In this document: positions 1,703 to 21,957 of the stretch, in pieces
How the letters are laid out: every line of letters begins with the position of its first letter
How positions within the stretch are numbered: the first letter of the stretch is position 1
DNA from: Baffinella frigidus
Taxonomy: Eukaryota; Cryptophyceae; Cryptomonadales; Baffinellaceae
DNA: 21,957 bases
Reading direction: 5' to 3'
Assembly: GCA_026770585.1 (NCBI GenBank)
Contig: MU647844.1
Location: 1-21,957, forward strand
Translations under genes and position numbers: made by a program
Notes under the pieces: model-generated
Database searches by the model: none
What the model saw: the letters and a program-made list of their open reading frames with translations, nothing else
What the model was told of the DNA's origin: nothing

Positions 1703-2608
1703 CTATTGGCTGGGAGACCATGCTTTTCCAAGACCGAAAAATATGTTTTTCGTGAATTTTCGTTTCATGAACAAGATTTCTTTCAGCTTCTGTCTCGGGA
1801 TGAACGTGATGTTGCTCATTAAGCGACGTTGGGGAATGACAACCAAGTTCTTTGCTTCCTCACTGTCGTTCAAAGAGCTGAGGTGGGTAAGATACAAGTA
1901 GTATCCAAGGTCATAATACTGATCCAAAATCGCCACTGCTTCGTTATCGCTGATGCCAAAGTGTTGATCCCAAATAGAGATTGTGATTTCTGCGATAATA
2001 TTCCCGACCGAGAATCGTTGGAGAATTGGCGGAAGGTCGCGAAGAATGATCGCCTCAGGACCATCTACATCGATTTTCATGAAGGAAAAGTTTCGATCAA
2101 TGATGGAGCTCAGGGCCATTTTTCTCGCGCTCCGTTGTCGCTGCTCTCAACGTTTGCCCGGTGCCCACAAAGTTCTTGTGATGTTGATGTGCCCATTGGT
2201 GTCTCCCACATACACAGGATGGTGAACAACAGTGCCATCGACGTCCCAATCGTTTACCATCAACATGGCAGTGAAGTATCTATTCATTTCATCCTGAGGG
2301 TCCACAGCAACAACAGCACAACCCATTGCCCTCATAAATCCTGTCATTTGGCCAATGTTTGACCCTAAGTCCAAAACTGTGTGCGAACCCGGGTTCTCAC
2401 GATCACAAACGCCCACCAAAGAACTTTGTATTGCCTCCATTACATGCAAATCGCCTCTGGCCTCGGCAAAACTGTGGCAAGCTTGGTTAAAAGCACATTT
2501 GCCGTGCAGATCTGTTGCGAACAACTTGTGTCCAGGAATGATCACTTCACCATTGTCCAAAAGAACCGGTTTAACAGCGATCGCGATGGATTTAAGCGCT
2601 GATTTCAT
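1703..2608 (-). pseudogene. FkbM-family SAM-dependent methyltransferase domain, interrupted by an in-frame TGA
   Basis: FkbM-type enzymes transfer a methyl group from S-adenosylmethionine, usually to a hydroxyl on a sugar or small molecule. The frame from ATG at 2608 contains the cofactor-binding motif LDLGSNIGQMTGF, followed by a VVAVDPQ strand end (motif I and the acidic ribose-binding residue). After one stop codon the same frame continues with FSFMKIDVDGPEAIILRDL, the characteristic FkbM KIDVEGxE motif. The two parts total about 302 codons, a usual length for the domain. The TGA at 2147-2149 is the only break; it could be a C-to-T change at a CpG (CGA to TGA), a very short intron, or recoding. 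An AG lies directly before the ATG (tggtcag), so this may be an internal exon joined to the signal-anchor segment at 3900-4127. The family call is firm; whether the gene is dead is not. Confidence 0.7.
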
Positions 2609-3899
2609 CTGACCACCCTAGATTCTACGAAATGCAATCCAGGGCTGGACGCTTGTTGAAGTTGACAGTAATGGCTCAAATTCCGCCGCAGAAAATGGCG
2701 TTCGCCGGTGAGTTTGGCACCCTGGCGGCGCAGGTGCAGGGGCAATGGAGCACGCACGGTGAACAAAACGTCAAGTATCGATCCCGTGGACTCATCGCCC
2801 CACAGCTGGGGTGCGCATTTGTGCAGAATCATGCCAGGTTCCCTTGATTTGGGTCGGGTCCCAGCTTCTGGAGGCCCTTGGCCGCGCCCCAGCTGCCTCT
2901 GGTGCGTGTGTTTGCAGCGGATCGACTGTGCAGTCCATCGGGGTGGTGTAATGGTCGGTCGGGGCACTTTGAATCAACTCCTGGCCGCCTGACACGCGTG
3001 CACGCCTTTGCTACGCGGTCGCTCCCGCACAAGCCTCGTCAGACGAGTACAAACTCACTCCAGGGTACGCCCACAACTTGAACTGTGGACCCTGAGCCCT
3101 ACGCAGCACCCAGAGGGTGGAATGTAGCGTGTGTCTGGTTACACCAGCGGCTCCTCAGTCACCGGTATTGGCGTCCAGGGGCGCTGACGCACAAACAGGA
3201 TCAAACGCGGACCATGTCCCTGGCCTGGCTCTGCAGCTGCTGTGGTCGCGCGGGTGTGTCGGAGAAGTCTCTAACCCGACCAGAACGTACTATGGTGGAG
3301 TCTGACCGCTTTGGGTGAACATCCGACGGCTGGCAACGGAGGTATGAATATTTGGAGCATGTTGATGACAACCATGCACCGTGCAAAAAGCAGTTGCAAG
3401 GGGTTCCAACCCCATTCCTGCGCACGAATGGCCAAAATACCTCATCGTGGATCATGACACATGCTAGGCCGAAGCGAAAAGGTATGTGACTCGGCCAGGC
3501 ACCGGCGTAGACGTCCCAGGGCGCGGGCTTGGTGTTGAGACCAAATTTGAGTGCAACCACAAACACGGGCACGCAGCCGCGTATATCAACTCTTTGCAGC
3601 CAGAAATTGCTTCCACGCGATCGCTCAAGTGTGGCCTTCGCAGCGCCCCACCTCCTGGACCTGTCGCTCGACGGAAACACCACCAGCTTGGTCGCCCAAG
3701 AAAACCCAAAAGCTGCCCCCAGAATAGACCACTCCACCTCGTACCCAGCTGTGGCTGTGCGCGTCGCGGCGGCGGAAAAACTTGACCACCGTACGCAGGG
3801 GGCTTGCACCGTGGGATTCCACTCCTCAGATCCTCCTGAGTCCCCCGGGGGGCTTCCCACGGGCCCCAAGCAGAGGCGGGAACAGAATCTGTTCCCGGC
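2609..3899. other. Non-coding or intronic stretch between the methyltransferase and the signal-anchor segment
   Basis: Several overlapping ORFs of 60-220 codons lie here on both strands, the longest on the minus strand at 3201-3869. None contains a motif I recognise, and they overlap one another in different frames. A tRNA-Gln-like piece lies at about 2941-2975. If 1703-2608 and 3900-4127 belong to one minus-strand gene, this stretch would be mostly intron, but I cannot place splice sites with confidence. Confidence 0.35.
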
Positions 3900-4136: not shown

Positions 4137-4142
4137 CAATAA
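4137..4142. other. Left target-site duplication (caataa)
   Basis: The hexamer caataa directly precedes the left LTR and recurs one base beyond the right LTR (21625-21630). The match extends to caataact if the first two LTR bases are counted. Confidence 0.6.
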
Positions 4143-4322
4143 CTAATGGAACCACGTCAACTTAAGGAGACTTCCCGGGCCTGTGTCTCACCTGAAGGGC
4201 CAACCGCACTCTCTGGGGAAGGATCCGCTTGTCGCGAGGCAAAGGCGTGGGAACTCAGCTTTGGGAAACGAAGGGTGATTCATTAATCACTCAACAGGCC
4301 ACTTGAACCCTTTTGAGTGATC

Positions 4323-4346
4323 CATAAGTGGAGAGAACCACTTATG
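4323..4346. promoter_or_regulatory. LTR inverted repeat, cataagtgg / ccacttatg
   Basis: Nine-base perfect arms at 4323-4331 and 4338-4346 are separated by 6 bases and recur identically in the right LTR at 21513-21536. A further half-site, ccacttat, follows at 4380-4387. This could be a binding site for a dimeric regulator or an RNA stem; which one is not known. Confidence 0.4.
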
Positions 4347-4393
4347 TAACCCAAGGGATATTAGAGCCCTTTGGAGAGACCACTTATAGTCGG

Positions 4394-4405
4394 CCTTACG
4401 TAAGG
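4394..4405. promoter_or_regulatory. LTR 12-bp perfect palindrome (ccttacgtaagg)
   Basis: The palindrome is centred on TACGTA and is preserved in the other LTR at 21584-21595. The core resembles bZIP/CREB-type palindromes (TACGTA, ACGT), which would suit a promoter-proximal activator site. Function is inferred. Confidence 0.35.
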
Positions 4406-4430
4406 GCGACAACTTAAGAAGGTTGAAATT

Positions 4431-4458
4431 ACGAAATCAACGAAATCAACGAAATCAA
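4431..4458. repeat. Three 9-bp tandem repeats (acgaaatca) at the inner edge of the 3' LTR
   Basis: Units at 4431-4439, 4440-4448 and 4449-4457 start with the last three LTR bases. This is where the polypurine tract for plus-strand priming is expected, but in element orientation it reads TTGATTTCG repeats and is not purine-rich. Confidence 0.75.
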
Positions 4459-4793
4459 CCAACGTCACCCCCGTTCGGTTCCAGTGGGATAACTACCACA
4501 CCGGACCGACATACCATAGTATTCTCAACCATTTTTCGGTTAGAAAAATTCGGACTCCTTCAGGATTTCCAAAATTTCTCACACCGCTTACTCTCGTCTC
4601 TTTTTCTGTAGCGTCCTCAGCGTCTACATCGATCTCTGACCTCAACCCAGAGTCCTCACATTTCCGGTGAGCAGTACGCCTCAAGGAGTTCCTATTGAGG
4701 TATCCTCCGCGTCCTCACCTATATCTCACGCTACTGTAGATCCTCGGAAGAAGAGAAACAGCGATGGAGTGACGAAGTCGAGGAGTAGATCTT

Positions 4794-4873
4794 GAGAGAG
4801 AGAGAGAATCCGAGAGGAAGAGAGAGAGAGAGCGAGAGAGAGATAGAGGGAGAGAGAGAGAGAGAGAGAGAAA
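4794..4873 (+). repeat. GA-dinucleotide tract upstream of histone H3
   Basis: About 80 bp of nearly pure GA repeats on the histone-sense strand, with a few c and t interruptions. Its last base lies about 190 bp before the H3 ATG. GA tracts in some eukaryotic histone promoters bind GAGA-type factors; here it could equally be neutral slippage sequence. On the element-sense strand it is a CT tract and so is not the retroviral polypurine tract. Confidence 0.9.
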
Positions 4874-4963
4874 TTTGGACCACTTTTGGAGAAAAAGGGA
4901 CAAAATTTGACTTAACGATTTCTCCGGAAGTTGACCGATAAATTCGCCCAAAATAGATCCTCC

Positions 4964-4973
4964 AAATAAAAGG
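4964..4973 (+). promoter_or_regulatory. Possible TATA-like element for histone H3
   Basis: The sequence aaataaaagg lies 88 bp before the H3 ATG, inside a short A/T-rich patch between the two arms of an inverted repeat. It resembles TATA boxes of histone genes, but many protists do not use TATA boxes. Confidence 0.25.
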
Positions 4974-5060
4974 ATCCGTTCCGGAGATTTCTCTCACAAA
5001 ATCCAGAACCGGCACGTTTTTGCCTCGAAAAAGAGTCAGGTTTTCTGCTCTCCGCCTGGC

Positions 5061-5546
5061 ATGGCGCGCAGTAAGACAAGGTTGTCGGAGTCCCCCGCGC
5101 CATCCAAAGGCGAGAAAATGAGCGGATCGCCCTCGAAAAAGAGCTCCAAAGTCATCCCTCCTCATCCTTATCGTGCCTCGCACCAGTTCGTCGGAGTCAA
5201 ACGTCCGGATCGTCTCCGCTCCGGTACTCTCGCTCTGCGCGAAATTCGTCGTGCACAGAAGTCCACCGGCCTTCTCATCCCCAAGACCAACTTCAGTCGT
5301 CTCGTACGTGAGATCGGCGGCGACCTTCAGTCCTGCACTCGGTGGACAGCCAATGCCCTAGAGGCGCTCCAGGAGAGTGCTGAGGACTACGTCGTAACTC
5401 TCATGCAGGATGCCAACCTGTCTTCCATCCATCGAGGTGCCATCACCGTCACTCCTAGTGACGTCCGTCATGCCCTCACCCTCCGTAAGGACTCCGTCAC
5501 CCCCCAAGACGTCGACCGCATGCTGAAGCTCCATCAGAGGGCGTAG
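5061..5546 (+). CDS. Divergent histone H3 variant carried antisense inside the retrotransposon
   Basis: The 161-residue product starts MARSK, like MARTK of H3, and carries the H3 core: LALREIRRAQKSTGLLI, then FSRLVREI, then ALEALQES and NLSSIH. H3 pairs with H4 and wraps DNA in nucleosomes. In mature numbering its core runs 10 positions ahead of canonical H3. Loop 1 has the canonical length, so it lacks the CENP-A insertion, but residue 94 is Trp where H3 has Phe84 and where CenH3 usually has Trp. R69, R72 and R83 equivalents are kept. R63, K115, R116 and K122 are replaced by P, G, A and S. Cys110 is Ser. The tail keeps the K4 context (ARSK) and the K36 context (GVKRP) but has no ARKS motif for K9 or K27. 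There is no intron. The ATG has G at -3 and +4, and an upstream in-frame stop lies at 4932. The C-terminus is about 15 residues longer than usual through a duplication. The TAG abuts the polyprotein TAA. The H3 family call is very secure; the function is not known. Confidence 0.93.
   Translation: MARSKTRLSESPAPSKGEKMSGSPSKKSSKVIPPHPYRASHQFVGVKRPDRLRSGTLALREIRRAQKSTGLLIPKTNFSRLVREIGGDLQSCTRWTANALEALQESAEDYVVTLMQDANLSSIHRGAITVTPSDVRHALTLRKDSVTPQDVDRMLKLHQRA
5448..5543 (+). repeat. 48-bp tandem duplication at the 3' end of the histone gene
   Basis: Codons 130-145 encode VTPSDVRHALTLRKDS and codons 146-161 encode VTPQDVDRMLKLHQRA. Both fit VTPxDVxxxLxL and have the same 16-codon length. The unit is loop 2 plus the last helix of the histone fold. 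Nucleotide identity is only partial, so the duplication is not new. Confidence 0.65.
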
Positions 5547-8500
5547 TTACTTCCCCACCTTCGATTTCTTCTTCTTGGGTCCCTCGAGACCCTTGCGAGT
5601 GTCCTTAGGGGAGAGAGGAGGTGTCCAATCAGCATGTCCCAGGATCGCCGCCCGCAGCTGAGTTTGTTGTTCGTGGGGCAGGGTCTTGGTCAGAATGTCC
5701 GCCAGCTGGTGAGTGGTGTCCACTTTGACGCAAATAAAACGCCCCGCCCGGTCCTCGTCCCGAAGTCGGAATATGGTCACGTCAAACCAGCGCACTCTCG
5801 AGCTCAGCTTGTCGCCCTGTACCAGCGCGACAGTGGCTGCGTTATCCTCCCCGTATCTGAGTGGTTTCTCCATAGAGAACCCAAAGAAGGTCACGATTTT
5901 GCGTACAAAGAGCGTCATCCTCATTTGTTCCACCGCCGCATAGGCCTCCGCTTCGCAAGTGCTGATGGCGCAAACGGGCTGTCGAGTTGATTTCCAGGCG
6001 ACGGCTGCTCCATTCATCAAACACAGCGCCCCGGTTTGTGACCGTCGGGTTTCGAAACAGTCTGCAAAAGAGGCATCGCAAAACGACACTTCCTCATTCT
6101 TTTCGACTTTCACTCCTGCCAGTTCTTGTTTGAACGTTGCGTCTCGTCTCCAGGTTAGCTCGTTGTAGCGTGTGATGTAGGCGTGCGCCAGGAGGTGATA
6201 GAGAGAGGTCAAATGCTCGGTTGACGGGTCACTGCAGAAACTGGCCAGTACGTTAAACGCATGGCTCATGTCAGGACGCGCGAAGTTGGTGAGGTATCCC
6301 AGGGTGCCCACAGCTGCGTAGTAGAGTTTCTTCTCTTCCACGCTTGCTGCCGGAGCCCCAGTAAAGTTTCTAGACTGTAGCCGTTCAGAGTTTGGAAGGG
6401 TCTTGAGGTAGTTGGACCCCCCGTTCAACCTCTTCTCCTCGAGTCTTTCCACATCCAAATTGAACTTCTCCGCCATCGCCTCGATGTAATGCCTCAAACT
6501 CAGCGTGATTGTCCCCGCACCCAAGTCCTGAGTCACCTTGGCCCCCAAATATTGCCCAATGTCTCCAGATGAGGACAGTTTGAACTGGCTCCCCAGCTTG
6601 TCCACGACCATATCCCACGCGCGAACATCGGAAACAGCGACCGCTGCGTCGTCCACGTGCCACGCACTCAGGATTTTGACGGGGAGAGTTTCGCCCGACG
6701 TTTGGTCGGTGATCGTCCCTGTGAAGCAGAACAGTCCTCCATCAGCCTCACACACTTTGAAGTTCATTTCCTCCCTCAAAAACTTCGCCAGTACCAGGTA
6801 CCAGAGTCTCCCGGAGTTCCTTCCTCCGTATAGTGCCTTCAGCAGAGGCAGGATCCACCCTGCACCTCCGTAGCGTGACTCGAAATCGGGAGGGAGGGAG
6901 CAGTAGATGGTCTCCGACTCCGGGATGGTTGCCTGCAGATATGCCGCACTTACATCCAACTGCTTCACCGTAAATCCGCACGCAGCCGCAATCGAGAGGA
7001 GTGTCCGGAAACTGGTCATATCAGCAGTGGGAGAGTAACAGTCCGCCGAGTTGATGTGCTTCTGCATGTCTCCTCGAATGCAGCATCTGGCCCTCCGCTC
7101 CTGTTCTGTCCCAGTGGTATCCACCTTCATCGTGTATACCCAGGTCAGAGGAATCACATGAGTGCCCGGAGGTAGATCCCCCTTCTGCATTGGTTGCGCG
7201 AAAGTTCCGTTCCGCTCCAGAGTTTCGATCTCGACCAACATTGCTTGCTTCCAAAATTTCCAGTCCACCCTCCTTCGAGCGTCATACACGTTCCCGGGCT
7301 GCGCCGGCAAATGTTGGGGTACTGTCGACTGATCAAGCCCCCCCGTGGAAGACACCACCATCACGATCTTGGAGTTCCCGTCTTCGGCCTGTATGAGTTC
7401 ATACTCGGGAACAGTGTGGAGAAACACTGTCTTCCCGAAGTAAAGTTCCTCCACTGCCGGAGGGAGGGTTTTCATCTCCCATTTTCCTCCTCTCAGGCAG
7501 GGGGGCAAGCGAGACGTAATCATCTTGTTGATCAGTCGAGTCTTTGGTGCCCCCGTGGAGTCCGGAGTGTAGCGTTGAAAAGATGGGAGTGTCACTTCTT
7601 CTACAGGATGGCTCTTCTTCTTAGTCACCATCTGTCGAAGAACCCGTTCTTTCAGAAAATGAGCCGACCCGTCCGAGAAAGATGTCTCAAAGCGCTGTTC
7701 CATGCGTGACCCTGAGGCAGCTCCGTCATGACGGTGTACTCGAACCAGCACACGTCTCATGACACGGCCAGTGATGGGAGCGAGTTCTCCGGTCTGTGCG
7801 TTCCAGTCCACCTTCACCACCTGTGCAAGATTGAAACTTCTGGAGTTATGATCATTCCTGAAGTCGAGAACCATCTGAGCGTGGCACAGGAGAGGGTCCT
7901 TCTGTTTCCCTCCAGCCTTCCTGCCGAAACGAGTCGTGACTGCTGGGGCCCGTCCTGCTTCCCGAAGTTTCTTCCGGCTCTGTGAAGCAAACTTCCCTGG
8001 TCCCTTCCTGGTTCCCCCGTCGATGGATTCGTCAGCGACTATCTCCTTGTGCAAAGGTAAAGTCCCCAAACCATCTTCCTGTTCATTGTCCGGGGAGCTG
8101 TGTCCCCCGTCCGATAGGTAGGTGGCCGTGGAGTCGTATTCTTCAGCAAAAGGATCTGCGTCGTACCCTTCGAGTGAGTCAGCCTCGTGTCCCCCCGTCG
8201 ACTCTGTGGTGTGAACCTCTGAACCCACTTGAGTTGCAGCCCCAAACGTAAGCCGGCGCGTGTCCTTTTCTCCTCCTTCTGGATAGATCCTGGTCACTTC
8301 CTCGGGGTGGCTCTCGATGCTGGTGTTCAATTCCCGGTTTTGACCAGCTTCCAGTGCCCGTCCGGAGGCTTCATCCAGGTCCCCTTGAGTGAACGGTGGC
8401 CGATGTGCATTCGACCCCGGCGTACTTCGCCCGGAGTGTCCCAGGCGATCCTCATATTGAGAGGACGGGCACGATCCATCCTCGAAGTCGCTCATCACTG

Positions 8501-11500
8501 TATCCCACGAGTGCCTCAGCTGGGACGGCAGGTACAGGGGAGTCACGTCTCGTCCCTCGATGTATCTGTTTGCCTCCGACGCTGGTCCCCTGGAAGCATC
8601 GCGAAGGAGCTCCTTGTCCACCTCTAGCAATAGCTCATCGCCCGTTACCAGCTCAAATCCAGGACGGTTGTCAAAGTCCTCCACGAGGTTATCCAGCGTC
8701 GTTAGGTGCACCAGTCCACGGAAAAACTCTGTCATGGTGTCAACCAGGACTGCGTCTGGATTTGAGTCGAACATCTCTTGCAGCAGAGTGGGAGATCTAT
8801 CCATCATACACAGATTCAAGCCACTTCCCCATCCAAGATCCTGACGTGAGTGCTGAGGCCTGGCGGGAAAGTAGGTGTCGTTCGTGGAGATGGTGTCAGC
8901 CACGTGAATCTTTCCCGTGTGTGGCGTGAACACGTACCACCCCTGAACCTTGAAGAGGTGAGATGTTGTTCCAAGGTATATCCCGGTGAAAGCATGAGGC
9001 AGTAGTTTTGGAGACAACCCTTCTGCAATCATCTTCGTCTTGGAGCGGTGAGCGAACGCTAGGCACCCGAAGATTTTCAGTGACCGCAAGTCCAGCTTGT
9101 CCTTCTCGAAGTAGATCAGTTCGGCTATGCCCCCGTGTCCTTTCCCCTCGTTTGCTCGGCTTGGCGTCTTGTTCAGAATATCAATTGCAGTTTCGAAGGC
9201 GTAGTTCCAAACATGAGCGCCGAGTCCCGAGTGCAGGAGCAGACCTTTCCCAGCTCTAGCCACACGGTATAAGGAGTGTTCCGCCATCCCGTTCCGGTCC
9301 TGTCGATACGAGCAAGAGGCTCTGGACACAAACCCATAGACCTTTCCCAAGTCCGCCAGGGCTTTCACCAGAACTGGAGCGTTGTCACTTTGTACCGTGC
9401 CCCACGGTTTTCGGTGACACCGAGATGCCCACGCCGCCTCAGACTCCAGTTTCGCGACGACTGCGTCCTGGGTTTTCGCGAAGAAGCCTCTCAGGTACCC
9501 CGAAAAACGATCCGCGAGTATGAGAAGGTATCGATCACCGTTCACTGCCTTGTTCCCCTTCCCCACGTCCAGAACGTCGCAGTAAAGCTTCTCGTTCACA
9601 CGGGTGCACTCGCTCGGGGCCCATTTTCCGGAGTTTCCTCGTCTCATCTTCGAAAGAGCACACACAGAGCAAAAGGAGGGATCGGAGTATTTCCTTTCCA
9701 CTACGTCGTGTTTCACGTCCTTCGGCCAGTGCGATACGTGTGGACTCATTGACTTTAACTTCGCGAGAGGAGCGTGCCCAAGGCACGCATGTACGGTCTG
9801 AATCGGATCATACAAGGTCCCACGAGTCGAGCGTCTGTTGTGTGAGTCGGCCATTGCTCCCACCACATGCACATTCGCTGTCGCTTGAGGTTTCTGCCGT
9901 CGGGAGCGCTCCATGTATTGGTCCTGCCTTGCCTCCCTGTACCCCGCGTACAGTGGAAGCATTGTGAGGCCTCCCAGTTCAAAGAAGCGTTTGAAGACCA
10001 TCCTTGGTGCCGAATCTGCTTCTCCGTGACTGACGAAGAGCAGTCCGGAGGTTGAGTAGTTTCCGGACAGACGGGGGGCGAGTCCCTCCTTCACCATGCT
10101 GCTCCAGCTCAAGATGTTCCCGGCCTTACCTGAGCTGTCAAAGTAGACCTCCGGCAGCTTCAGGCGGGCACCATCTCCGAGGTCTATGTCGATTTCTCCC
10201 ACTTGTTCGAGGATAGACGTTGAGCCACACGCCCCAGAGATCTGTAGAGAGCACGGTCTGATGGATCCTTCCACGAAGTACTTCGCATCAGACAGAACGT
10301 CAATTTGAGATCCTGTGTCAATCAGGGCGTGAGCCCTCATCGTGGTCCCAGACATGAGCTGGTACACCGCCGCTACCTCGTCTTCGGAGGGCAGTAGCGA
10401 GTTCCAGCCGAAACATGCGCGCGTCTCGCTACCGAGTGAATCAGGAACCTCGAGCTTCGAAGCCGCTTGTCCATTCGCCTTTGGTGAGGCCTCCAGCACT
10501 AGTAGCCCATCCCGAAATCCACACACGTGTTCCAGCGAGGCATCCGATTCAGAAAGTGTGTTGCCAAGAACAGCCCTCGCGGGGATTGATACCCTTGCCG
10601 TGTTCTCCCGCAGTTCCACTCGAAAGCCCGATTTCTCCAGTGCTGGAATGGATAGCAGCGTCGCACCCATTTCGTCACTTCCCAAGTATACGTCAGGAAC
10701 GTTCACCCTGCGGGTGACTCCGTCGTGACTGATCTCCAACTCGACATCCCCAACATGGGTGAATCGTTGGACGTTTGAATGCATCACGGCTATCATGTCT
10801 GAGGCCAGTCGTCGAAGGTTGAACAGGATCGAGCTGTCACAAGTGACAGAGAAAAGGGAGTTGCTGTCCAACACGACCGGGCGCTCCGACGCCAGAGGCC
10901 TCCATACTCTAACTTGTCGGTGTGTCCCCCGTTCGAGAATGGCATCCAGTCCGCGACCGACTGTCATCTCCGTTGAATCGTCGTCGGAAACATCCGGGTC
11001 CCTTCCAGGCTGCACGTTTCCGCACTCACAGGTCTTCTGCGGGATTTGGTTTTGGTCCAACCAGTCCAGTACCTTCTCCCGTGTGGGTCCTTCCAATTTC
11101 GCATTCGCGACACCGCCACTCAAGATGTTGTGGGAATGGTCAGTGTGGGAGTGTCCCGACGGTGATCCGGGGACTTCGGCAGCAGTCCCCGCGTTCAAAT
11201 TCGCCAAAGAGGTATCGTCAACATCTTCCATGGAGGTGTCCCCTTCCGACTTTCCCACTTGAGCATTCCGCCCTTCCTCAGTCGTAGCCTCAGCAAGCTC
11301 CACACGAGGTCCATCGTCTGAAGGATCGGTGTCCCTAGGCGGTCGGGGGTCCACAGCTCTTGGAGCAGTCGAAGGGCGAGTGCCTCTCGGCGGTCGAGGG
11401 TCGACCGCCGGAGGACGCGTTGGACGAAAAATGGGGCGAGGCCTTACACCTTGGGGTGGGGGTACTCCGCCTTCGTCTCCATCATCATCCGGTTCGTCCG

Positions 11501-14500
11501 ATGGTGCTGGAGCACCACCCTGTGCCCAGCTTCCCTGCCTTTCGTCTGGAACCGCCCAGGGCGGTCTCCCTGTGTCCATTTCGAAACTGTACAAATCCAG
11601 AAGTTCACGTATGCTCCATTCAAGACCCCTTCGCTTCGTCAGTTCCTGATGGTTATTGAATTGCTGAGCCCACGCGCGTTGTGTCATGCGTGCCGCGAGT
11701 ACACCGTCCTCCGACGCCGTGTAATGAGGGCCCCCATCAGGAGGGTCAATTTGTTCCCTCCGCCACCTTGTCATTCGCGATGTGGTGTACTGAATGTCAT
11801 AGTGATCGCGCATCTCCCTCGCCCTCAATTCCGGGTAAAAACATTGGGCCTCCAGGGGACTGTGCAAGTGCTCTTCTTCCGCCTCGCATTGGTCCATGTG
11901 AAGGTCGTACTCGTCACCAACAAACTGACTCAGACGTTCTGCTTCCGAGGCCAGGTCCCTGCGGCTCAGTGCCGCCTCGGTCCACCTGGGGTTCCTCGGA
12001 ATCGCGAGTGTGCCTGGAAAGTGTTGTTGAATCCCAAACACTTCTGCCCAACGAACGTTTGCGGCCCGTCGTGCGAAGAATATGGCGGCCTCGGCCAAAT
12101 GAAATTGTGTCAGCAGAAAAGGGGAGATATCAATGAAGTAGTCTTGCCGGTAATCTCCCGAGACGAATATATTCTCCAGAGGCTCCGCTTGTCTCGTCAA
12201 GTGGTGAGTATTAGAGTACGCGTCGATGTCCACGCCCGCGAGCAGGGCCCTGACCTTTCCGAGCTCCTTGTGCATCACCTTAATCGCCGATCCTGGACCG
12301 CCATCACGCCTCCGACGTCCCGTAAAGAGAGGTCCCATCTGTAGGTCGGAGCGTACCCTTCCGTCGCGTACATATTGGCGCTCACGTCTCCGATACAGGT
12401 CCAGAGTTTGAAACATGCTCTCCAGCTCCCGATCAACCGCCATTTCAATCCTCCCGATGGAGTTCCCGAAATTGATCCGGACGAAGGTGACGAGACACCG
12501 AATGTGCTCTGGGTTGACCGGGAGGATCCCAAAAGGATGAAGAGGGCGAGTCCCTTTCACCCACAGGATACGAAGGTCTTCGGCAGGGAATCCGCAGGTC
12601 TCCCTCGCGAGCGAGTCACGCGCCCGCAGAATGGTATGCCAACAGAGGGCTTCCCTTTCCCAGTGTTGCGTGACTCCCGGATCCTCATTGGGATTGATCA
12701 TGAGTGTCTCTATGATGACCCCAGCGCCGTAAAAAGGGTGAACGTCCTGTGGTGTAGTGTCCTCGGGGAGACCATCGAAATTCCTTCTGGGGGCCGCCCA
12801 CGGTGGCGTCACTCCCGGCTCTCTCCGAGTCGTCATGTATGCCGCCATCGGGACCCCGTTCGTGAGTCCCATCTCCTTTGCAGCAAGGTCCTGGGCCTCC
12901 TGCTCAGAACGATTCTCGCCCCACTGCATGGAGAGATAGCGTGGCCTTGGTCCGTGCTCCGTGATCCTCGGATAGGGGGCTCCTGCTTCGACATCTTCCT
13001 CAGGATCATCCCTCTCACCAGGGTGTGCGTCTGATCCAGCCACGCCTCCAGGTCGCGCCCTTGCGCCCGAGTTCTGACCTCGTCTGTTACCTCGTCGGTC
13101 AAGCGACGACGGGGCGTTCCTAGACATATCCAGAATGATTGGGCCCGAGAGTCCGCCATCTTGCAGAGAGCTCCGGGTCACCCAGTCCCTTACCACTGAA
13201 TCCATCATATCGAGCCTTACGTACGCAGACGTGAAATCCCGATCCAGAGCCCAGTCGGCCTCCATACCCCAGCGCTTTGGTATTCTCTGACGGAGTAGCA
13301 TACTGTCTCGCGAGTCGGGATGAGGTTCACCCGTCTCTTCGTCGAAGTTGCGAACGGTCCTGGACGGGCTTTGGCGGAACAAATCTGGGAACAGAGTCGC
13401 GTAAAGCAGTTGCGCTCGGACGTGGTGTCTTCGCAAGATGGTCATGCGCTCGCGTGCTGGACGCCTCCGTGCGGGTGCCTCGTCCCGTGTCGAATCACAG
13501 AGTGCCCACCCGTACTCTTTCTCGTCGTTCGTCCACAGAGCCTTCAAGTGTCCCATGACGACCATGAACCCTTCTGGGTTGGATACCCCCAGGGGAAAAT
13601 GCAAGGCTGGGATCTGGAAGAGATCGTGCAAGTTATGTTGCGACTCGAGAAGCCCAGCCAGGAGTTTCAGTCTCTCTCCGGCTGCCACCCTTCTCCGAGT
13701 GATGATGCTTTCCGGAGGAGAGTTACGGTCGCATGGCGCGATCAAGAATAGGTCGTCTTCGCGCGGGATGAGGGTCGGTCTGCGCCACGTTCGTGAACTT
13801 GCCAGCAGATTGTTTGCAAATTCCCCTCCCAGAGGGACCAGTATGAAGTCCCCCTCATCCAGGTCTCTTGCGGTTTCCGTCCCCCAAGCGAACATGTCGC
13901 CCTGGATCAGGCGAAGTCGGAATTCTTGGAGAGTTTCTGTGCCTTCGCGCTGACCTCCCCTTGCTCTCCCTGAGGTGGCCTGTGGTCTGACAAAGCTCCA
14001 CCCTAGTAGTCCGAGATGTTCAAGCTCTTCTCCAGGAACGAATGTTGGCCGCGGAACTGGAAATACCGGGAGTTCCCATTCAACGCGGGTAGAGTGAGCC
14101 ACGAGCTCGGAGTCCCCTCGCATATCCGTGGGGGCACCTCCCGCTCCGCGGAGGATCACAGCGGCATCTGGATTGAGTATGCCCGTCCTTCCCAAAAATT
14201 GAAGAGTAGTCCGTGTTTCAAACCGTGACTCTTGCTCCTCGGAACGTTCTGGACCCCGGGACGGCGGATTCCGTGCCCGGCTTGGAAAGCTTGTCGGCGC
14301 AGATCCAGGTTCTTGGTCTGCATCTGCGTCTCCCAAAGGTATACCCGTGAAGGTGAAAGTCGCTCGTATCTGGAGTGTGCTTCCTCTGGTAATTCGAGAC
14401 TCTGAGTGCTTCTCAAGTGAGGTGATGAGGCCCTTCACTCCGTCTTTCCCTTCCGGATCCTCTGACAGATTCCCTTTCGGGGCTTTTGTCAGAGGTTCAG

Positions 14501-17500
14501 TGCCTGGAGGTTCAGTGCCTGGTCCCTTAGGTCCAAGGCCATCTTTCCATGAAGAGTAAGGCTCGCTCACTGGTCCACGTGGAGGAAGGTCACAGGAGTT
14601 TCTTGCTTCAACGTTGTCAGTCGTCCCGCTCTCCGGCTTGTCGTGCGTAAAGGTAAAGTTTGAGCTCTTCAGAGCCGATTTAAGAGCTGGCTTTCCGTCT
14701 GCGTTTTCTCCGACCCCCCCCCCGTGAATCGCCTTGACAGCATCTTGATCTGGAGAGGGCGGTTCAGAGTCCTCGTCCTTGGGCAACACCTCGGGAGCAC
14801 GTCCTCCGACAGGTGCAGATTTGGTCTTCTTCTTCTTTTTGTCAACCGTCGGAGGTTTCTCAACGTCATGGTCCCCGTCGTCTGGCAGGTCTTTGACGAT
14901 GTGAGCCTTTACACATGCAGGTTCAGGAAAGGGACGTTGGTTCCACTCATCCACCTCGACTGGCTGATTCAGCAAGAGCTTTACTACCCGTACGTCGGTG
15001 TTCCTTTTTGGTACGTGAACCTGCAGGGACGAATTTTGCTTTCCTCGGGGAGGGTCTGGTGCAACTCCTTGGGCACGGCGCAAGTTTGCTCCAGGTGCCC
15101 CGCCTCCACGGCCACGTTGCGCAGCCCCGGCTCCTCCACGACCGCCTCCTTGGGCTGCACCACCCCGTCCCCCGCCCCTTGGGGCGGCGCCGCCACGTCC
15201 GCCTCCTCGAGCGCCGCCTCCGGCAGGTCCGCCTCCTCGTGCTCCACCTCCAGCACCACCGCCTCCTCGGCCTCCGCCACCATTACCACGTCCCCCTCCC
15301 GGGCCTCCTGGACCACCACCTCCTCCACCTGGCTGAGCATCTGCCATAGCTTCCTGAGCCTTGGCACAGGTGGCGTTGTGGTCTCCTTTGAAGGGCGCCT
15401 CGCAATATGCGCACGTAGGAAGAGCCCCCTTTTCACCAAGGATAGGAAGGCGTGCCTTTCGGTACTTGCATGTGGTTTGGTGTCCTTGGAAGTACATCAC
15501 TCCACAGTTCTTCGCGCACTTTCGCTTGGGAACTTCTGGGTCCGAGTGAGTCCTGTTCGCTCGCAGGGCCTGCACATATTTCGTGTACCCCAGTGTTGCC
15601 CACGCCCCGCTCTCTCCTTCGCCAGGTCCCGTGGTTGCGCCGTAGTCTTCGTCTTCGTATCCAGTGTCAAAGTCTTCGTCGTAATTCGCGGTCACCTTTT
15701 GCACCGTGGCCTTTCTCCTTCGCAGTGCGGCTCCTCGATCGGAGGGGTCCAGCCCCCTACCCGACTGAAGATCAGTGTACGGAGCCGCAGGGGGAGTGAA
15801 GGTTTCCTGATCCCACGTCCACATCTGCTTGATCAGCTCCGTCACCGTGTACACTCCAGCATCGTTTCTCGTGTTGAGATACAGAAGTCTCTCGGCGTGT
15901 GCAAGGTGTGCTGCTGGTAGGAGATGGTTGGACGGATCCGCTAGCAGTTGCTTGTATCGGTCTATGAAGTCCGAGATGAGTCCCCTGTCTTCGTGAATGA
16001 TTTGTCCCGAGCTTCCTCCGCTGGAGCCCAACACCGCGGCGTGAAAGTGATCCAGGTCACGCGTCATAGTGTCGAGGAACAGTTGGGCGGCGAATTCGCA
16101 CCTGGGCCCGAAAGAGATACTGTTCTGAAGAGCTTTGCGAAGTGCCGTCACGTGTCGTGCGTGATTTGGTTTCGAGATGGCGTACCAGTCCGACAGGATC
16201 CAAAGTCCGTAGAAAGGATGAATGTGTACGCCTGCTCCAAAACCTAATTTCCTGGAGGACATGATAGCCGAGATGATGTTGCTCCCGGGGCCACTCTTCC
16301 ACTTTGAGTTCACATTTGAGGTGGCGCGTTCCTCGATCGCAGTGAACATCGTCAGCCAGCCGGTCAGGATCCCGTACTTGAGAGTCACGTCCTGAACGTA
16401 CTGTCTGTAGACCTTTTCGAAGTGTATATGCGTGGGCTGCAATTCCGGGATGCCCGCGTCCAGTTGAGACGACTCCGCCACCGAACGTCCCACGTCATTC
16501 AGTTCCGTGGAGTCCATCCCTTTCAGTCTGCACTCCAGCCAAAGAACTGAAGCTTCCTTGAACCGCAGCGAATCTGGGTCGTCAACTATCCTCTCGCCTT
16601 CAATCGTGTCGTGTAGGCGAGAGGGGACTCTCGACGGGAACATCGCTGTGATGGCGCCCACCTTCCCACACACTCGGAGCATCGTCGAAAACGAAGGGTC
16701 GAGTCTCTGCTGAATCAATGGAGTAATTCGGTCAAAATGCCTTTTGGCCGCCGTCGAGCGCTCGAGATCTGTTGCGCTTCCAGCGCACTCGATTGCATGT
16801 CCATCCAATTCCAGAAGTACCGACTTCATAATTTCCGGCGTGAAAATAGGTTTGATAGTTGGTCTGTTGCCTCCGATGCCAGCCGGCCCTGTTTCAGCAA
16901 CTCTCTGCAGAGCAGCATCCACCGGGTGAGCTGCGCCTTGAAGATGCCCTGCCGTCTCAAAGAGCATCGACTCACGTAGGGGCGAGACTCTCGGGCCCAG
17001 GCTCTCCTCAGGATCACGTCCCGCGATGTGAGTGTCGGACTCCCATGCTTTTAGAGGTTCATTTCCCGTTCCGGACTCTTTTGCTGATGAAGGCTTCGGA
17101 GTCTCCCACACGGATGTTGAGAGGAAACCTGGCGGGCTTTCGGTGTGCGCCCGACGTTCCCCAGACGAAACACGCGCGCGAAGTTCCTCGGGAGTGGCCA
17201 GAAGAGCGAATGCAGTTCCTCGATCCCTCTTTCTGTTTGTTCCACGCTCGCCGTCCCCCACGAGTGAGTGCCGTCGGCCATATTCTAGTTCACGGCGCTG
17301 TTCCTCCCTCGCGTTCAGCTCTTGGGGCCCACGTTCTTGTCGGAAGGAGTACCTGGATCCAGGAGGGTCCGGTTGTTCATGGCGGTTGCCTACTTCGGTG
17401 TCCACATGCACGTGTTCACGTCTTCCCACCCGAGGCTCGCCGTCCTCGGTCGGCGTGCGTCGTCGCTGTGTGTCCCCACAGGTGACCTTGCTGCCCCGCG

Positions 17501-20258: not shown

Positions 20259-20297
20259 GTTTTGAGGCAGAGCTAGGACGAAACTTCCGATTTTGTG

Positions 20298-20755
20298 TCC
20301 AATCACACCCACCCCCACTTAGAGGGCGCCAGGCGCGGCTCTTAGAGGGAGAAGGAGGAGGGGTGCGAGGTGATGTTCGGTGCGCCGGGCGCGTCCTGCG
20401 TCCCCGGTAGTGCTCCGAATACCCCTTGGGTGAACTTTTGCCCAATCACACTCACCCCCACTTAGAGTGCGCCAGGCGCGGCTCTCAGTGAGGGGTAGCA
20501 GGGCAGAACCGTGGCGAGAAGATCCGTGGCGCGACCGACGCGCCCCGTCTCGATCTGTGCCGGTCCCTCCTCCGAATGTCTTCGAAGGTGAATTTTTGCC
20601 CAATCACACCCACCCCCACCTAGAGTGCGCCAAGCGCGGCTCTCGGTGAGGGGTAGCAGGGCAGGACCGTGGTGAGGAGAGTCGTGACGTGCCGACGCAC
20701 CTCGTCGCGACCTTCAGCCGGTCCTTCCTTTCCTGGCGGGAGCAATCCCGCCTTG
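20298..20755. repeat. Three diverged tandem repeats of about 143-158 bp in the leader
   Basis: Each unit opens with a ccaatcacac(c/t)caccccca motif (20298, 20441 and 20599), followed by cttagag and gcgccaggcgcggctct, then a variable G-rich part. The copies differ by many substitutions and small indels. The leftmost unit lies just upstream of the polyprotein ATG. The end of the third unit is uncertain. Confidence 0.8.
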
Positions 20756-21301: not shown

Positions 21302-21330
21302 CCGCAGCGCTGGGAGCGCCAGGGCTCATA
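21302..21330 (-). promoter_or_regulatory. Primer binding site: complementary to the 5' half of a Met tRNA
   Basis: Two bases inside the 5' LTR, the + strand reads like the D-arm and anticodon arm of a methionine tRNA: CGCAGC, GG, AGCG, then CAGGGCTCATA, in which CAT is the anticodon and GGG is the initiator-type stem. The element strand would therefore pair with the tRNA from the D-arm to the anticodon loop, not with its 3' CCA end. Drosophila copia is known to prime from such a cut initiator tRNA-Met half molecule, so the same mode is likely here. The tRNA comparison is from memory of typical eukaryotic sequences. Confidence 0.7.
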
Positions 21331-21332
21331 GC

Positions 21333-21623
21333 CTAATGGAACCACGTCAACTTAAGGAGACTTCCCGGGCCTGTGTCTCACCTGAAGGGCCAACCGCACT
21401 CTCTGGGGAAGGATCCGCTTGTCGCGAGGCAAAGGCGTGGGAACTCAGCTTTGGGAAACGAAGGGTGATTCATTAATCACTCAACAGGCCACTTGAACCC
21501 TTTTGAGTGATCCATAAGTGGAGAGAACCACTTATGTGACCCAAGGGATATTAGAGCCCTTTGGAGAGACCACTTATAGTCGGCCTTACGTAAGGGCGAC
21601 AACTTAAGAAGGTTGAAATTACG
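21333..21623 (-). repeat. Right LTR (5' LTR of the element)
   Basis: It matches the left LTR with one difference (g at 21538). As the 5' LTR it should hold the promoter and RNA start. In element orientation a TATAAG lies at 21573-21578, about 45 bases from the outer edge, followed by the palindrome pair described for the left LTR. Confidence 0.93.
21573..21578 (-). promoter_or_regulatory. Possible TATA element in the 5' LTR
   Basis: The minus strand reads GACTATAAGTGG here, inside U3. The same sequence is present in the 3' LTR at 4383-4388. Without a mapped start site this is a pattern match only. Confidence 0.3.
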
Positions 21624-21624
21624 T

Positions 21625-21630
21625 CAATAA
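21625..21630. other. Right target-site duplication (caataa)
   Basis: It repeats the hexamer left of the element. One extra t (21624) lies between it and the last base shared by the two LTRs, so either the LTR has a 1-base edge difference or the duplication has one mismatch. Confidence 0.6.
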
Positions 21631-21957
21631 CTGATATAAAAAAATTATTTATCAAAAAGAAACTGTTATTATTAAATATTTTAGTACAAACAGAGAGTGC
21701 GTGGAACAACACACGGTTGGGGGGCACCGCTCCGGCGGCAGCGGTCAGATCCCAGCGAATTTTGGCTCGCTGCATGCGTCTCGGTGCGGCACGTCGGTTG
21801 ATGGCGGTCGGCACCGCGTGCGCGGCGCGAGCGTCGACAGGCCGCTGGACTTGGGATTGGGAACGGCTCTTCGCCAAGGGGCGGACCCGCTCAACCAGTG
21901 CCCGAAAGCACCAGAGCGGACCGCCGAAAAGATTGGTGTGCCGGGACCGCGCTGCCG
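21631..21957. other. Right flank, no recognised gene
   Basis: An A/T-rich patch (21632-21690) is followed by GC-rich sequence. One + frame stays open from inside the LTR to the window edge (encoding for example GRWTWDWERLFAKG), and an antisense frame is also long, so neither is strong evidence for a gene. It is the former upstream neighbour of the signal-anchor ORF at 3900-4127 and may hold that gene's original promoter. Confidence 0.3.

Follow-up and report, generated by a model that had tools for sequence, protein, structure and literature searches.

Can a long terminal repeat (LTR) retrotransposon hold a core histone gene as a resident part of itself? The question is raised by a 21,957-nucleotide stretch of DNA from the cryptophyte Baffinella frigidus (assembly GCA_026770585.1, contig MU647844.1, positions 1–21,957 of the forward strand), which was analysed as a whole and is referred to here as the window. 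The initial annotation, made from the letters alone, described an intact, intronless histone H3 gene between pol and the 3′ LTR of a complete Ty1/copia element, on the strand opposite gag-pol. Both parts of this description hold. The H3 open reading frame (ORF; positions 5061–5546, plus strand) comprises 161 codons in one exon, and its stop codon adjoins that of gag-pol (positions 5546 and 5547). The element is ~17.5 kb long, is coded on the minus strand and has both LTRs, a 5-bp target duplication (ATAAC) and an RVT_2 reverse transcriptase domain (E 7.7e-35). Across the genome, the H3 gene proves to be an accessory gene resident in a Ty1/copia family of giant elements with few copies, found at the same place in separate insertions.

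An H3 gene at the same place in separate insertions

The window gene encodes a core histone H3 with a complete fold. Its product scores 86 bits with the Pfam core histone family, for which the cut-off is 26.4 (E 3e-24), its best match in the Protein Data Bank (PDB) is an H3.3 chain (E 3.4e-26), and Pfam, PDB sequences and a structure model with its fold match concur that the H3 fold is complete. No histone 3′ stem-loop was found at E 1 in a search with Rfam.

The genome assembly spans 382 Mb in 1364 contigs, of which the window is contig C1224, and copy counts of repeats in it are lower bounds; cryptophyte genomes sometimes exceed 500 Mbp (PMC12220804). A light-harvesting protein encoded in the assembly has the antenna proteins ACPI and CAC, both from cryptophyte structures, as its best PDB matches (1.2e-77 and 7.3e-72), which points to a probable cryptophyte; the best matches of a second protein, L042, were mixed. 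Querying the genome with the H3 gave eight matches, namely the window, intact genes on contigs C236 and C104, four host H3-type genes and a fragment on C1220, with no further H3 of the element type beyond the element copies. Both C236 and C104 carry a full H3 at the same position of the element, with 94% amino acid identity to the window H3. Their matches to the window start at base 4138–4139, which is the element edge, and the left flank of the window is unmatched in either, so these are separate insertions; the comparison covers the left flank, as on the other side C104 gives way to N and C236 begins only within pol. The copy on C1220 has a large internal deletion that removed much of pol and most of H3. 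Its remnant keeps the first 40-odd codons; read from the H3 start, it reaches a stop after 48 codons and has one in-frame difference, which lies in the tail.

Querying the genome with the LTR gave 13 matches on 8 contigs. The position of H3 is unreadable in C512, which runs into N, and in C894, where the contig ends; C18 is a truncated 3′ relic in which similarity stops before H3, and C833 has only 45–48 bases of LTR. Thus all four copies with a readable H3 position have H3, complete or partial, and it is whole in all three that keep the end of pol at 99% or more; the alternative allowed for in the initial annotation, that only this copy carries H3, fails. Gag-pol is without a stop in the readable parts of C104 (amino acids 18–4903) and C236 (amino acids 2746–4903). 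The LTR sequence on C833 consists of two short ends that overlap as an inverted pair (L039, C833:128736–128803), and no other match to the window was seen in the surrounding 10 kb, part of which is N.

A related pol on C603 is 52–58% identical over the pol end, with a frame change there, and has no H3 within about 3.1 kb behind it. H3 was therefore either gained on the branch of the window element or lost in C603. The region behind this pol (L040, C603:221401–225000) contains a frame with Cys/His-rich, gag-like knuckles, recognised by eye, followed by a 93-base tandem repeat. The remaining pol matches among the 30 listed are more distant copia pols, mostly at 23–36%.

The initial annotation had taken the open but divergent frame to suggest selection on the element, and comparison of the copies supports this. 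No indels separate the three intact genes, and the ratio of nonsynonymous (dN) to synonymous (dS) divergence, computed by NG86, is 0.19–0.24. For the window and C236, dS is 0.147 and dN 0.028 (ratio 0.191, Fisher 4.8e-5), with 9 amino acid differences against 17.6–18.3 when the same number of changes is placed at random (P 5e-5 to 2.5e-4). The corresponding values are dS 0.117 and dN 0.028 for the window and C104 (ratio 0.239, Fisher 8.7e-4; 9 differences against 15.6–16.3, P 0.001 to 0.003), and dS 0.052 and dN 0.011 for C236 and C104 (ratio 0.213, Fisher 0.017; 4 differences against 6.9–7.2, P 0.03 to 0.05). The region upstream of H3 is 91–95% identical between copies, compared with 95–98% for H3 itself; dN/dS of pol is 0.04–0.11, and 0.22 over residues 18–3410 in the window and C104. 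The changes in H3 between copies thus appear, from these alignments, to carry the signature of purifying selection at the protein level.

These values bear on two explanations in which the protein would have no function. The first is that H3 is a passenger, captured once and not yet decayed. Fungal hAT elements amplified a captured H3, copies of which were inactivated by repeat-induced point mutation in one clade (PMC6710886), and C1220 has lost most of its H3 along with much of pol by deletion. The significant deficit of amino acid changes nevertheless makes such a passenger very unlikely, unless exchange between copies explains the dN/dS values; furthermore, a metagenomic relative, P0002, is still a full H3, although its link to an element is unproven. 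The second explanation, that the useful product is an antisense transcript and the protein a relic, draws on the convergence of the H3 gene on pol: with no gap between the stops, the two transcripts would overlap. As both the dN/dS values and the absence of indels among the three copies point to selection on the protein, this explanation is scarcely credible.

The element that carries the gene

The window copy comprises the following features, given as window positions and strand.
4139–4143, no strand: target-site duplication ATAAC outside the 3′ LTR, with the identical five bases at 21627–21631
4144–4467, minus: 3′ LTR, from a direct-repeat search, with edges set by comparison with copies C104, C236, C512 and C894
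4468–4478, minus: putative polypurine tract CCGAACGGGGG (element sense), adjoining the 3′ LTR and assigned by its position
4468–5060, plus: region upstream of H3, candidate promoter and leader, with a GA-rich stretch at 4794–4871 (TRF)
5061–5546, plus: histone H3 cargo gene, 161 amino acids, antisense to gag-pol
5547–20258, minus: gag-pol polyprotein, 4903 amino acids in a single frame, from the ORF list
6456–7178, minus: reverse transcriptase RVT_2, polyprotein residues 4361–4601, above the Pfam cut-off
9303–9602, minus: integrase core rve, polyprotein residues about 3553–3652, a weak Pfam match (E 0.0039) below the curated cut-off
20289–20689, minus: 5′ leader repeats before gag (repeat families D3 and D4; TRF period of 158 bases)
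21322–21333, minus: candidate primer binding site GGCTATGAGCCC, immediately inside the 5′ LTR
21334–21626, minus: 5′ LTR, from a direct-repeat search
21627–21631, no strand: target-site duplication ATAAC outside the 5′ LTR

The element is a Ty1/copia LTR retrotransposon of a giant, low-copy family. It shares with Ty1/copia elements (Pseudoviridae) LTRs that start with TG, a 5-base duplication and an RVT_2-type reverse transcriptase; the candidate half-tRNA-like primer site and the putative integrase core before the reverse transcriptase, a weak match, would be further likenesses. A retroviral SH3 domain, above the Pfam cut-off, lies between the rve match and RVT_2, which would give the copia order of domains. 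It differs from these elements in its single gag-pol frame of 4903 amino acids, its antisense H3 gene and LTRs that end with TA. A hAT transposon with H3 cargo was also considered as the class of the element, and is excluded by the direct LTRs, the lack of any inverted repeat of at least 30 bases in the window and the lack of a transposase in Pfam scans of the polyprotein, whole and in four 1000-amino-acid pieces.

The two LTRs differ at 1 of the 291 bases compared, and the 3′ LTR has, near the LTR start, an insertion of about 31 bases with TTGATTTCG repeats in a 9-base unit (TRF 4431–4459). In the other copies the LTR starts with TGACGTAATTTC and ends with GGTTCCATTA, and the LTR edges in the window were corrected to match. 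The motif of the putative polypurine tract recurs in C104 and C236, where the purine run GAACGGGGG abuts the 3′ LTR, and C512 has GGTTATGAGCCC at the candidate primer binding site. Copia and Ty5 prime with the anticodon arm of initiator tRNA-Met, which the candidate site GGCTATGAGCCC may resemble.

Residues 1–3000 of the polyprotein (window 11259–20258), scanned in three pieces, gave no Pfam match at E 0.1. This N-terminal part is very long for a copia Gag region and has a glycine/arginine-rich stretch and, by eye, possible Cys/His knuckles. To the left of the element, an FkbM-type methyltransferase (window 1703–2608, minus strand) is spread over two frames that are interrupted between 2119 and 2147; this may reflect a broken gene, an unrecognised intron or a sequence error.

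Origin and relatives of the element H3

The four host H3-type genes are 38–47% identical to the element H3 over the matched part, three of them at 46–47%. The G+C content at third codon positions is 0.667 in the element H3, 0.613 in gag-pol and 0.934 in the host H3 gene L004. By its sequence, the element H3 is not a recent host copy, and the other alternative of the initial annotation, near identity to a host gene, falls away. The polyprotein had no match in the surroundings of the four host genes, those of L016 consisting mostly of N; a 5496-amino-acid frame around host gene L005 was discarded as merely a run of N. L005 itself (C1065:53458–53757) is a host H3 variant with an altered tail that ends in a run of N, and L006 (C253:445658–445972) is another, with an altered tail and changes around loop 1.

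An H3 tree was built from 88 rows and 96 columns, comprising 81 of 111 database matches (ids up to P0084, at least 105 amino acids) and 7 genome sequences. The bootstrap of this tree was not yet stable, and 41 of its 82 inner branches are open. The initial annotation envisaged a tree with host H3, centromeric H3 (CenH3) and variants; the one built covers host H3s and database matches, and in it the element H3s form their own clade. The clade (support 100/97, branch length 0.61) unites the element H3s with two metagenomic sequences on short contigs, P0001 (98% identity; sources jgi and lgn) and P0002 (68%, a full H3; source jgi). If these two sequences also belong to elements, the retrotransposon lineage may be old and present in at least two species.

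Searches for relatives of the element beyond the genome were largely negative. None of the 10 matches to the C-terminal end of pol lies on a contig sized as for P0001 (longest 1090) or P0002 (1265), so no link between these H3s and pol emerged. Two close pol relatives, P0112 (64%, contig of 2006) and P0113 (61%, contig of 10804), show no sign of an H3 beside pol, and no database H3 match lists a contig of 2006 or 10804. Viral contigs in IMG/VR gave no relative for the H3, the last 1804 amino acids of the polyprotein, the H3 alignment or the alignment of the pol C-terminal end, and contigs of GTDB species genomes gave none for the last 1804 amino acids. A search with the whole polyprotein, in which residues 3000–4903 were scored and candidates were limited by length, returned none at E 0.001 among 1284 scored.

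The tail of the element H3 departs from that of canonical H3, in which K9 and K27 lie in ARKS motifs. This motif is absent from all five element-type H3 sequences, P0001 lacking the start of the tail. Lysine 9 is not conserved, while the tail retains R2, K4 and K36. The stretch SKKSS may supply a lysine near position 27; a claim that K27 is lost was dropped, the tail alignment being uncertain. In the core, residues R49, R52, R69, R72, R83, H113 and D123 are kept, and R63, K115, R116 and K122, presumed to lie on or near the DNA path, are replaced. The element H3 carries P63, W84 and alanine at 107.

The last of these residues raise the possibility that the element H3 derives from, or works like, CenH3 and ties the element to centromeric chromatin. 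Residue W84, a replaced T107 and a divergent tail are common in CenH3, and a longer loop 1 is a further criterion. Of these traits, W84, A107 and the divergent tail are present, and a tree placing the element H3s as sister to the divergent host H3 L007, which has P63 and W84 too, was not rejected (p-AU 0.43). Loop 1, however, is not lengthened, with no extra residue relative to L004 in the core alignment, and the 60 PDB matches listed (of 180 and 179) are all named H3 or H3 variants, with no CENP-A. Furthermore, W84 occurs in 22 and A107 in 45 of the 88 rows of the tree alignment and both are therefore weak markers of CenH3, and the tree itself contained no named CenH3. A centromeric origin or role is thus unlikely. 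L007 (C1262:36187–36534; 38% identical to the element H3, W at 84, no ARKS) could itself be the host's centromeric H3, by its sequence, although its best PDB rows are ordinary H3.

Possible roles of the element H3

Transposon silencing works largely through marks on host histones. The element H3 is probably nucleosomal, and there is an even chance, on the sequence features above, that as such it serves the element, most simply by making the element's chromatin harder to silence. It is proposed that transcription of H3 would run towards pol and start either at a promoter within the 593 bases that separate the gene from the 3′ LTR or in the LTR itself, and that the gene product would pair with host H4 and enter nucleosomes. 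The benefit to the element would come through altered chromatin, most likely on its own copies. With ARKS missing and R63, K115, R116 and K122 replaced, such nucleosomes are proposed to take silencing marks less readily and to be less tight at the dyad, and new copies would stay transcribable. In a more specific and tentative form, possible but well short of an even chance, the retrotransposon lineage would have turned a captured H3 without the K9 silencing site into its own variant, and nucleosomes on its own copies would escape heterochromatin marking by the host.

Several points weigh against a role of this kind. ARKS is missing from three of the four host H3-type sequences as well (L005, L006 and L007; L006 keeps ARKT), and P63 and W84 recur in L007. 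The N-terminus reads VRHK instead of ARSK in two of the three intact copies, so the context of K4 is not conserved. Between copies, dS is lower in H3 (0.05–0.15) than in pol (0.10–0.26), so copies may have exchanged sequence. The three are also related and share history, and the pairwise tests of selection are not independent. Lastly, that the H3 protein would go to the element, as opposed to chromatin at large, is an extrapolation from sequence.

Alternatively, the protein could act on the host: as a decoy or a dominant-negative variant, it would relax host chromatin or silencing in trans, much as the H4 of bracoviruses does to some extent. Bracovirus H4 enters host nucleosomes, and the lone H3 that certain DNA viruses encode probably does so too (PMC9145170). 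The few copies of the element would give a low dose unless strongly expressed, and an action on the host is considered doubtful.

It is also conceivable that H3 acts before integration, packed with complementary DNA in particles or steering the integration complex, with any effect on chromatin secondary. Retand-lineage Ty3/gypsy elements of flowering plants carry antisense ORFs between pol and the 3′ LTR that encode predicted DNA-binding proteins (PMC11963269), and other LTR elements have extra ORFs behind pol (PMC6431247). The Retand genes resemble the element H3 in place, orientation and predicted DNA binding, and differ in that their hosts are Ty3/gypsy elements and their cargo mostly a TRP28 domain, neither copia nor histone. 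A structure model predicts an extra C-terminal helix in the element H3 (residues 148–160), past the end of host H3, which together with the lysine-containing tail would suit such a role. The C-terminal extension, however, is missing from P0002, and the core residues listed above as kept are those expected of a nucleosomal H3. A role before integration therefore has a small, though not negligible, chance of being correct.

H3 cargo has parallels in other mobile DNA. The initial annotation knew of no established copia family that carries a core histone. The open-licence literature searched yielded no report of such a cargo in any LTR retrotransposon, but for mobile elements in general a qualification is needed, as some fungal hAT DNA transposons do carry H3 (PMC3538342, PMC6710886). 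In Pyrenophora tritici-repentis, a hAT element carries an H3-like gene, H3L, which matches neither H3 nor CenH3 and for which expressed sequence tags exist; its copies are nearly identical, and the authors suggest drift (PMC3538342). Capture of H3 by hAT elements also occurred in Cercospora, Pseudocercospora and Sphaerulina, and in Pseudocercospora the captured sequence is intronless and the copies are inactivated (PMC6710886). Like these, the window element carries and multiplies an H3-like gene. Unlike these class II elements with a transposase, it is an LTR retrotransposon whose copies are few and diverged, with a dN/dS that indicates selection.

Among DNA viruses, xenomavirus, sylvanvirus, a phycodnavirus and others have a single H3 (PMC9145170), and they resemble the window element in being selfish and in having just one core histone, which presumably depends on those of the host. 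Six viral H3s are 73–87% identical in the fold to a possible host H3 (PMC9145170), whereas the element H3 is 46–47% identical to three host H3s over the matched part.

Histone capture, described for DNA viruses and DNA transposons, is thereby extended to LTR retrotransposons, with evidence of selection on the cargo that is not known from the fungal hAT cases (PMC3538342, PMC6710886). From its sequence, the locus points to an element that may contribute some of the chromatin in which DNA is packaged. If so, the B. frigidus element would provide a natural H3 with an altered tail and altered DNA contacts, usable to test the roles of those residues, and the import, retention and evolution of an H3 of its own would represent a counter-strategy at the level of the nucleosome.
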